Below, piece by piece: positions 49,901-55,900 of a stretch of 64,000 bases of DNA. A program made the position numbers and the translations under genes. Each line of letters opens with the position of its first letter. Positions within the stretch are counted from its first letter, which is position 1. The stretch comes from Hydra vulgaris (lineage: Eukaryota > Cnidaria > Hydrozoa > Anthoathecata > Hydridae), in NCBI RefSeq assembly GCF_038396675.1, contig NC_088931.1:59847501-59911500 (forward strand), in the 5' to 3' direction. A model generated the notes under the pieces. The model worked only from the letters and a program-made list of their open reading frames with translations. It had not been told where the DNA came from and searched no databases.

Positions 49901-52900
49901 ATACATACATATATATATATGACAAGCAACAATTCATTTTGACTGATATAATAATGTATGATTGATTGTTCTCTTGTACTGGACATTCTAGCAATATATA
50001 TGGCAACTGCTAACTAGTCGCTATACCAGCTCCTAAATTGTACAGGTAAATACTTTAATTAATAGATGATGTTTAAATTTTTATAAAAATTTTATTTTAG
50101 TTCAACTAAACTGGTTACAATTTATGACAGGCATGGAGAGTTAAAAGATGAATTTGTGTTACCAGGGTTGGTTGTAATAATACTATGTTTATTGTAAACT
50201 TTGTTTCAATATATAAACTATGTAAAAAGTAAAAGCTGTTTTACCTAAAGTTTCAAAAACTGTATAGGTCTTAATTCTCTAACTAAATTTTTTCTTTTAT
50301 TAAAAGCCTTCGTATTGTATATCTAATTTTTATAGAGTTTGCACTGGGTTATGTTGGGATAAAAATGGCGATATACTTGCAGTAGGAAATGAAAAAAATG
50401 GTTTGTAGTTTTTTTGATATGTGGTAACATTACATTTGTCTTAATCTAGAACGTATTTAAATTTGTCAATGTGTCTATGTTTGAAATGAAAGTTTTAAAT
50501 TTATAAAAATTTTAGTAGATAAAAGTTATTATTTTTTTTAAACAATGACTTGTTGCGTGGGAATCAGTTCTACAGTGAGGTATATTTATCAAAATATCTT
50601 ATAACACATGTCTGGTTGAAATCAATATTCTGATGGGTAAACTACATATCTAATTTTTGTTCAAAGATTTTCTGATTGCACACTATGAACTGCGAAGAAA
50701 ACATTGTTTTGTGGTTCACTGTATTTTAGCACCAGGAGCAGATTGTTTCACTGCAGAGAAATGCCTTTCTGTCATCTAAGCATTTGAATTATCAAACAAG
50801 ATGACTTAGGTTTTTAAGTTAGCTTCAAGGAAATTACATCTTGGATAAAATCCAAAAACATCTTTTTACTGCACAAAGGGTGTTTGTTCAATCAATCTGA
50901 TGTCTTTTTAAATAATACAAGCCTTCAAAATTTGTCAAAAATGTTTATTTAAGAAAATTTGAAGAAGTTTAGTTTAAAACACTACAAGCGTCAACATGTT
51001 TTGCACTGAATCCATATTCAGACCTCTCTGATTCTCTAATGATATTTTATAACATCTAATTCTCCGGTCCATTGTTTTCAAAATCAGATTTTTCCAATTC
51101 TAAATCACTATCACATTCTTAAATTATAAAAATATTTAGAATGTTATTTATATTACTGTAATTTTATCTTGCCTGTGCCATTTTGAAAAACTAATAAATC
51201 AACGTTGGGTTATCCAATAGTGAATTTTTGTGTTTCGTTAGAAAATATTCCAGTAATAGCAATACAAGGTTTGAAAATCATTAAGTTTTTCGTTTTCTGT
51301 AATTAATGATGTAAATAAATATACATATGTTGACTAATGCTATTTGACAAGCTAAGATAAATTTTAAAAGTTAAATTTTTTTTTTATTTATTTTAGCCAT
51401 TTTACCTTCAGATCAGATGTCAAATATATATATATATATATATATATATATATATATATATATATATATATATATATATTAGGGGTATTCAAAAAAAGTG
51501 AATTTTCAAATCTAAAAAACCATACCCCCTAAATTTGGGGCAAATATATGAAAAATGAGCCTCACAAAGTTTAAGCGCTGTCCGTTCACTTTTGACCCCC
51601 CCTCAAGCTAATAATTTAGGGGAAAATTGACCGAAAAGTGGTCATTTTCGGGCGTCTTGAGGGAGGGGCAATTTTTCTTTTTTTCAAATTTTTTTTTCCT
51701 GCTATATATATATAGGCCTATATTTTTGTTTAAAAATATATGGTTTTTTCTTTACTTCTTAAAAATCTATGTTTGGTGATATTGAAAATCATGAAAATTG
51801 GTATTTTTTAAAATATATTTTCTATTATGCCTAATGTTATCTACATATATTTTCGTGTAAATTCTGATAGTTCAAAACTTTGAATTTTTCTAATAAATAC
51901 AGATTAGTACATACAATAAACATTAAAAATGAGTGAAGCACAACTTAGGTCAATGAAAAAGGAACTTTTTATTATAAAAGAGGCAAAACCAGCTATATCA
52001 GGTATAAACATTTTTATTAATATTGGAATTATAATGAGTCATTAGTTGCTAAAAAGTTTATTTTTTTTATAAAATATAAATTTTTCTATTTAGATATACA
52101 ACTTTCAACAGGCTTGGATATACTTCAACATTTAATATATAACCAACAATGTCGATCTGTATCAATATCAAGTATTATTGCTTGTCTCCCTAAAAAAATT
52201 TTTCTAGATGTTCGGAGAGTTGTTGTGAATGTATTTTGTCTAAAATCAAGAGAGTCTGGATTAGAGCTGGATTTGATGCGTTAACTGATTTAAGTTTAGT
52301 TAAAAAACTTTTTAAATTGCATAAGTCCTATTCCAACTTGAAAAAAAATGCAAAAAGGGGAAATAGTGGTGATTTGGCTAAACAAAACGAGTTTGAGATT
52401 GAAATAAAAAAACTTTTTTGGGCTGGTAATTCTAATCTCAAAGACACAATCAGTAAAGATAAAAAAAGATCACTAAAAGACAAGATTGAAGATCTAAAAT
52501 TTCTTGAAGATCAGGAAAATGAAAGAAAGTTTGTTATTGGTTCAGAGGATATTAAATATAGAAAAAAGGTATTCAATACTTTTAATTAATTACTTTAGCT
52601 CTTTCTCAAGCTCTGTTAATTCTTTTTTCCACTAATTTTAAAATTAAAAACTAAAACTACATTTCTTCTGTTAATTAGGCAAAAGAAAGCATCAGGAAGA
52701 AAAATGGTTTACAGCCTAAGATTTTGAGAGATGATGTACCCAACGTTGAACTTATAGACACAATTCTAAGCGATGATTCTTCAATTGAATCTGATTTCGA
52801 GCCAGGTGATTGGTATCATATAGAAGTCTCTGAAAACCCAGACACAGTAATTGCAAAAATTCCAAAAGATGTTTTTGCTGGTAATGTTTCACTTACTGCT

Positions 52901-55900
52901 ACAGCCTGTGATATATCACCAAATGTTTTACAGAAGGTAACAAATGCAATTCTATATCAATCAGGTGTTGATCTTAAAGAAGTTAAAAGCAGTCAATCTA
53001 CCGCATATAGAAAAATGAAAAAAGAAAATGAAAACATGGCAAAAATTTCAAAAGAAGATGTTAAAGCAGCCATAGACGCATCTCCATATCCATGTATAAT
53101 TCATTTTGATGGGAAGACCTTGTTTGAGCTAAGCAAAGGAAAAATGTTAAAGAGGGATAGAATGGGTGTTTTAGTTAACATTAATGGACAGACTTACCTA
53201 CTTGGAGTACCTCCACTAGCGTCATCCACTGGTGAAGATCAGTTCTTAGGTGTAATGAACTTAATTAAGGAGTATCAACTTACGTCAAAAACTAGAGGAA
53301 TATGCTTTGATACAACATCATCCAACACTGGGACGAATAAAGGATCAGTTTCCAGAATATCTCAAGAACTGGATAAGTATCTCCTCCAAATAGCATGTAG
53401 GCATCATGTGACTGAATTAAGAATGCTTCACTTTTGGAAATTAGTGACCAATGAAGAAACTAGTGGACCTGACAATCCTCTTTTCAAAAAGCTTAAAAAT
53501 ATTTTTGAAGAACCTAATTTTAACTATAATTCAGTTCAACTGTTACGGTTTGATTGGAATAAGGTTAAAAGCAGTTTTTTAGAAAAGGCAGCTATGAAGT
53601 CATTAACATTTTGCAAAGCATACGTTAGTAAACCAGGTATTATAAGAGATGATAGAAGTGAGCTTGCAGAATTAGTTGTCACGTACTTATCCCCTATAAC
53701 ATATAAAGTAAGAAAAACTGGTGCTATTCATCATGCAAGATTTTTAGGAAAAGCAATTTATTATCTAAAGCTTCGGCTTTTATCCAATCAACTTATGTTT
53801 GTTCAGGAAAATGATAAACTGAAAATTGAAATTAAGCTTATTACAGAATTTATTGTTTGCTTTTATGCAAAATGGTATCTACAATCTGAGGATGTCATCA
53901 AAGCTCCTTTTCTTGACATTACAGCCATACATCAAATGCATCTGTACAAGAAGGTATGTACAAACCCAATAGCTGTCGATGCTGTATTAGAATCTCAGTA
54001 TAAACACTGTTGGTATTTGGATTCAACAATGATACCTTTAGCTTTGCTAGATGATGAGTTAGCATCAGAGGAGAAGGCAAAAATTGCATCAGCAATTCTG
54101 TCATTTGATATGCCTAGCTCTGACTATTATAAGCCTGAGAATAAAGTAAAGCAAGATATCAAGGAAATTTATAAAATGAATACAAAAATTGGGAAAAAAC
54201 CACCATCCTTGTCTGCCTTGGTTGATGTCTTTTTTTACCTGATTTTTGACATGATTGGGTTTGATAAGCAACGAGTTCAAGACTGGCTCTCACTTCCACC
54301 AAACTATTAGCATACTCAGTCATGCTTCAAAAGTTTTCAAAAATATGCTGAAACTTTGATTTTTGTAAATGACCATTCAGAACGGTCAATAGGTATGATG
54401 GGGCAGTATATTCATAAATATTCTGATGAAACTGAAAAGCACAACAGATTGCTAACTGTGGACAAAGTTCGATCTGTATTCAGATCACAAGAACAAAAAT
54501 CCGGTACAATTCAAAGATTAAGTTTAATGGACTTGGTGTGATGCGAAAAAAGATAAAGAGTTAAACTTGATTATTATTAGATTTGTAAATTTTTTTTCTG
54601 TTATAAAACTTGAATATAAATTTATAATTTTATTTATTCTTGCTCATTTTGATTTTTCAATATAGATAAATAGTGTTTTTTTCAATATAGATAAACAACA
54701 TTGCTGAGGTCACAACCAACAACTGTTCATTCTTTCCAGCAAAATGAAGTTGGTTGCTCCCTCTGGTATGTCTTGGGAATAGTTAGAGAGGCCTTGTGTG
54801 TATATGTTAATACACACAAGGCTTATAAATAAATAAATATATATATATATATATATATTATTTACTTGATATATATATATATATATATATATATATATAT
54901 ATATATATATATATATATATATATATATATATATATATATATACATATATATATATACATATCGGACAGCGCTCAAACTTTGCGAGGCTCATTTTTTATA
55001 CATTGGCCCCAAATTTAGGGGGTATGGTTTTTTAGATTTGAAAATTCACTTTTTTTGAATACCCCTAATATATATGTATGTATATATATATGTATGTATA
55101 TATATGTATATATATGTATATATATGTATATATATGTATATATATGTATATATATGTATATATATGTATATATATATATATATATATATATATATATATA
55201 TATATATATATATATATATATATATATATATATATATATGATTAACACCCTATATATATATGATTAACACCCTAAAAAAATATTTAAATTATTTTTTTAT
55301 ACAGGTGTTTTGTTTTTGTGGAATGCCACTACAATGAAATCAACACAACTGGATACTGGTTTCAAGTATTGTTTTTGTTTTTATTAAGTTAATAAGTTTT
55401 TTGCTTTTATCAAGTTAATTTACATCTGATTCTATAATCAATACTGTGTTTTCTTCTAGGGATTCAGTATCTTACTTAATATGGTCAAAAGTTTCTCAAA
55501 TATTAGCTGTGGGTGCGTAAGCATTAGCTTAGTTAACTTCTATAAAATAATGTTAAATATTGTTGAGAAATGGCTAGTTTATTTGACTGTTATTGGTTAC
55601 TTTTTTTTTTATTATTGATTTTAGGTACTTCTATGGGAAATCTTTTGCTTTATAATCACCAGAATTCAAGGTTTGTCTTTTTTCTAACAGAGTTTCAAGC
55701 TTTTTTTTGAATCTTTTTTTAGTGGTATTAATGTTATCTAAATTCCAGCAAAGTGTGTTTTAAATTTGTAAAGTTTATCTTTAGAAACTTTTTACTTAAA
55801 CCCATTCAAATTAAGTTTAAGAATTAAGACCTTTTTCAGTAAAAATAGTAAATGCACAAAAAACATTAATATACCTTACTGTAACTTACTCTGAGTTACA

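Follow-up and report, generated by a model that had tools for sequence, protein, structure and literature searches.

A probable hAT superfamily transposon in Hydra vulgaris with long TAGGG ends and insertions in TA repeats

Within a 64,000-nucleotide stretch of the Hydra vulgaris genome (assembly GCF_038396675.1, contig NC_088931.1, forward strand positions 59,847,501 to 59,911,500; here called the window, to which coordinates refer) lies a DNA transposon at 51480-55067 that is very probably a decayed autonomous copy of a cut-and-paste element of the hAT superfamily, with the hATm lineage as its nearest likeness. It has inverted ends TAGGGGTATTC...GAATACCCCTA and a gene that we read as three exons. 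The original prediction, made from the sequence alone, described an autonomous-type DNA transposon, a reading that our results uphold, and found no superfamily that could be named for it. We place it in hAT because its TAGGG ends with 8-bp target site duplications (TSDs), the spacing of D-D-CxxH-E, an alignment in register with hAT profiles, and a match of a poor fold model to the hAT transposase Hermes all fit. The hATm-like assignment, which follows the published description of ends, repeats, and duplication, is probable, and the family may already be in Repbase. We conclude that the element is a member of a known hAT group rather than a new class of transposon.

The genome searched comprised 911.5 Mb in 15 contigs. 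A search with the window element returned at least 322 matches, with 40 of 805 candidates scored, and its first 62 bases occur 103 times when up to 3 mismatches are allowed (reversed control, 0). We fetched 39 copies of the window family (family 1), either whole or for the most part. Their identity to the window copy, taken over each copy's best aligned stretch, is 95.9-98.4% (mean 97.2%, n = 39).

The ends of the window element are not a chance feature, since its first 32 bases have two exact matches in the window, and 100 shuffles gave a mean of 0.00. The inverted ends predicted at 51480 and 55067 are thus real, but the predicted repeat length of 105 bp describes a remnant of a terminal inverted repeat (TIR) of ~320-330 bp. 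The left TIR, starting with TAGGGGTATTC, spans ~329 bp (51480-51808, + strand). This length comes from comparison with other copies: for most of those listed, bases 1-329 align on the other strand to the opposite end, at 77-92% identity, mostly 84-92%. The right TIR (54963-55067, - strand) is the 105 bp that remain after loss of its inner part beside an internal TA-rich repeat tract (54838-54962), which adjoins the shortened end. L005 also has a TA tract there, and both L005 and L012 carry a fuller right repeat. Of the 39 fetched copies, 33 gave a repeat pair, at 81.6-94.4% identity (at least 87% in 27 of 33); the lengths measured for these pairs include flanking TA repeats. Within the element, the repeats of the fuller copies (L009, L011, L012, and L014) measure ~317-333 bp, and shorter remnants of 100-210 bp occur in a few fetched copies. 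The ends read TAGGGGT, so the CAGGG start is indeed absent, as first observed. This absence is compatible with hAT, because published hATm elements begin TAGGGTG (excerpt of PMC6004678).

An 8-bp duplication had been reported as not visible. ATATATAT is in fact present on both sides of the window element, hidden in TA repeats: the left copy is at 51472-51479, its length taken from other copies, and the right copy, at 55068-55075, is followed by GTAT. On the right, the TA pattern breaks off at base nine of the flank, which limits the duplication to 8 bp or fewer. TA repeats host most family-1 copies, and the informative sites are those that are not pure alternating TA on both sides (4 to 14 per length tested). 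Left out of the count were L019, L020, L054, and L060 of family 1, which have damaged ends, and copies without both ends. At informative family-1 sites the flanks match at 8 bp in 3 of 10 cases, and in none at 2-7 or 9-12 bp. All three matches are ATATACAT and they count as two independent sites, because L025 and L026 are one duplicated site. Reading duplications at non-TA sites, as the original prediction had proposed, gives 8 bp at these two sites. The L025 site also has an unoccupied paralogue, L116, with a single ATATACAT and then a longer TA run. A related family (family 3, L068 type; ends TAGGGGTGTTCAG) inserts outside repeats, and exact 8-bp duplications are present at three of its seven sites (ATATCCAT, ATGGCCAC, and GGGCACAG), with 8-bp duplications containing one mismatch at two more (wrong-partner control, 0/42).

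Identical flanks surround the element at L025 (C1:5639035), L026 (C1:1982803), and C1:1785600-1789581. All three places are on a single contig, and the shared flanks make it probable that the region was duplicated once the element had inserted.

Several target-site counts speak against an 8-bp duplication. Inside TA repeats any even duplication length matches, with agreement of the family-1 flanks in 26 of 31 cases at 2 bp and in 24 of 31 at 8 bp. Seven of the 10 informative family-1 sites have no 8-bp match, two of the seven L068-type sites have no duplication within one mismatch, and the family-1 wrong-partner control at 8 bp is 9/376 rather than zero, because sites share sequence. A TA-duplicating element of the Tc1/mariner or PHIS type, with the 8-bp repeat match an artefact, could be read from these even-length matches and from the number of insertions in TA repeats. 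The informative sites, however, fit 8 bp only (3/10 and 3/7), and at 2 bp they give 0/4 in family 1 and 0/5 in family 3, leaving this explanation with almost no probability. Kolobok elements duplicate TTAA and Dada elements 6-7 bp. IS3EU elements of rust fungi have ends TAYGG..CCRTA and TIRs >30 bp, superficially near TAGGG, but carry 6-bp TSDs (PMC12730594, in part). Here none of the informative sites match at 6 bp (0/10 in family 1, 0/7 in family 3), and we judge an assignment to IS3EU, Kolobok, or Dada, which the original prediction had listed as matches that would refute it, highly improbable. The 8-bp duplication expected of hAT is thus found at informative sites of both families and is consistent with the unoccupied site.

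The transposase gene is encoded on the + strand. Exon 1 (51929-52001) is an open frame with a putative GT splice site at 52002. Exon 2 (52094-52568), recognized from open frames and alignment, has predicted splice sites and a frame break near 52190; aligned across three families, it has four invariant cysteines (C-x10-C-x4-C-x-C). Exon 3 (52679-54564), whose end was placed by comparison with L012, carries the catalytic core: D in HFDGK, D in CFDTT, CRHH, and E in NDHSER. The three-exon structure and its joins are predicted from reading frames and GT/AG sites. The window sequence confirms the gene's open frames, as well as the C-x2-H and NDHSER motifs that were first described. The gene has at least three lesions, not only two: besides the break in exon 2, there is a TAG codon at 54308-54310, and the frame is broken again near 54510, altering the last residues relative to other copies.

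The suggestion that other copies may be active finds no support among the fetched copies of the window family. Two of these 39, L014 and L037, have an uninterrupted exon 3 of 629 codons, and none of the 39 has both long exons open in a motif-filtered listing of open reading frames of at least 90 codons, which could miss a strongly altered exon 2. Both long exons are open in L069, from a related family at ~56% identity. In L068 (1593-3458, - strand) a long open transposase exon reads CFNTT; because the second catalytic D is N, this copy may be dead despite its open frame.

Comparison of the proteins adds to the case for hAT. Across five aligned sequences HFDGK, CF[D/N]TT.SNTG, ACRHH, and NDHSER are invariant, the N for the second D coming from L068, one of the three families compared. 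In the transposase the distances are 67 (D1-D2), 29 (D2-C), and 353-361 (D2-E) residues; in four Hydra proteins with hits to the hAT dimerisation domain PF05699 (three families) they are 66-68, 19-27, and 330-351. By order and spacing, the transposase thus appears to have the DDE triad of hAT, in which CxxH follows the second D and E is preceded by a long insertion. In profile alignment with four Hydra hAT proteins (three families) the catalytic block scored 25.1, and the maximum in 100 column shuffles was 20.0. The C-terminal block scored 19.5 against the Hydra hAT profile, with one of 100 shuffles as high (20.6), and the alignment set YWHTQS..F....A......SER over hAT WW......L..A......SER. 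The top Foldseek matches of a poor fold model were to Hermes (E 5.4e-6). The initial likening of the motifs to hAT RNase H folds accords with the spacing, the register, and this tentative structural match.

A further group of results counts against hAT. When compared by hhalign over the whole length, the protein showed no significant match to five Hydra hATs (probability 1.4, p 0.037). In the scanned exon 2 and exon 3 frames there was no Pfam match to PF05699 and, across three families, no match to a BED zinc finger; an N-terminal BED finger is common in hAT proteins but not universal. Searches of the PDB with the sequence of window exon 3 and with a profile returned no hit. Both fold models were poor, with mean predicted local distance difference test scores (pLDDT) of 41.5 and 40.3, and for the first no match reached E <= 0.001, with Hermes absent from the 50 matches listed. 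An IS256-type transposase, ISCth4, was at Foldseek rank 4. In VIA-align, retroviral integrases scored as high as Hermes or above it (up to 9.2); this list consists mostly of retroviral integrases and is read as indicating an RNase H core only.

P elements, like hAT, leave an 8-bp duplication, and the likeness to hAT could reflect nothing beyond a shared RNase H core in a separate 8-bp-duplicating DDE superfamily, such as P elements or Zisupton/KDZ. The missing PF05699 and BED matches suit this explanation, as does the P element transposase 6p5a in the Foldseek list (rank 31, E 8.8e-3), but Hermes ranks far better there (5.4e-6), and the scanned exons had no Pfam match to any transposase family, P and KDZ included. 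For Zisupton, 8-bp TSDs are described in part of PMC12730594; the TAGGG ends, the position of CxxH, and the C-terminal YW...ER register are nonetheless hAT-like. We consider a separate superfamily improbable and retain hAT.

For a hAT element of this kind, we propose that the long TAGGG ends would be bound by a transposase of ~810 residues, which would excise the element by RNase H-type DDE chemistry, with the hairpin route of Hermes assumed by analogy. Insertion would occur with an 8-bp stagger and a strong preference for TA-repeat tracts, and because of this preference the duplication would usually be ATATATAT. The chemistry, an oligomer, and target choice by the enzyme itself are all putative steps.

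The transposase may have many relatives. The pattern VNDxAER is known from arthropod proteins, and it has 638 matches in the Hydra genome (reversed control, 0), which suggests a very large and diverse transposase group. Two of these loci were examined and both proved to be relatives: L114 (33-57% identity by stretches) and L115 (~28-36%, best E 2e-20), the latter far diverged. Pfam named none of the five scanned pieces of L114 and L115, and Pfam together with NCBIfam gave nothing meaningful on the window exons. The window element probably belongs to a very large transposase group without a Pfam name. Given the lack of a detectable BED finger or Pfam dimerisation domain, the cysteine module of exon 2, and the ~330-bp ends, the NDHSER/NDxAER proteins might form a distinct hAT-derived lineage that ranks alongside the named hAT groups, one member of which has specialised in using TA microsatellites as a safe place to insert; we regard this as doubtful. 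Viral contigs searched with the protein, its alignment, and a divergent relative yielded no relative. The motif pattern occurred at 2 viral and 13 prokaryote contig loci; the best tblastn match among these 15 (L102, E 0.013) was rejected as a chance match in an actinobacterial frame. We found no paper under the protein name cc8L18.2.

Other mobile elements were also identified in the window. These are a Tc1/mariner-type transposase fragment (5418-6017, - strand; PF01498 and PF13384), pieces of a long terminal repeat retrotransposon with aspartyl protease and integrase core domains (33448-35912, + strand), and a non-long-terminal-repeat retrotransposon with endonuclease and reverse transcriptase domains in separate frames (45557-47866, + strand).

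The element at 51480-55067 looked new because its 8-bp duplication is unreadable in a TA-repeat target and because Pfam is blind to this branch of hAT. Placing it in hAT removes one candidate for a new superfamily. The result also directs attention to a transposase group, probably a large one, that the profile library used misses; this is useful for annotating the genomes of Hydra and other animals.

Among known systems, Hermes and the classical hAT elements (Ac, hobo, Tip100, and Buster) share with the window family the 8-bp TSD, the order and spacing of D-D-CxxH-E, and the C-terminal YW...ER. Unlike them, the window family has long TIRs, no detectable BED finger, the C-x10-C-x4-C-x-C module in exon 2, NDHSER in place of SSxxSER, and, in family 1, a strong bias to TA repeats. 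The closest likeness is probably to hATm, which has been proposed as a fourth hAT family with ends TAGGGTG, a TSD of 8-9 bp, two members whose TIRs measure 417 and 575 bp, the domain PF05699, and >74 Repbase entries (PMC6004678, in part). Two differences separate them: the ends of the three Hydra families studied here, TAGGGGT, have one G more than TAGGGTG, which counts against the assignment, and PF05699 is present in hATm whereas the window family has no match to it. An excerpt of a Hydra survey gives TATATATA as an example of a TSD, that of hATm-3 (PMC8721813), and hAT-hATm is listed among putatively active families of Hydra AEP in part of PMC12220107. Like hATm, the window family combines TAGGG-type ends and an 8-bp TSD, within the 8-9 bp of that family, with long TIRs, ~320-330 bp here compared with 417 and 575 bp.
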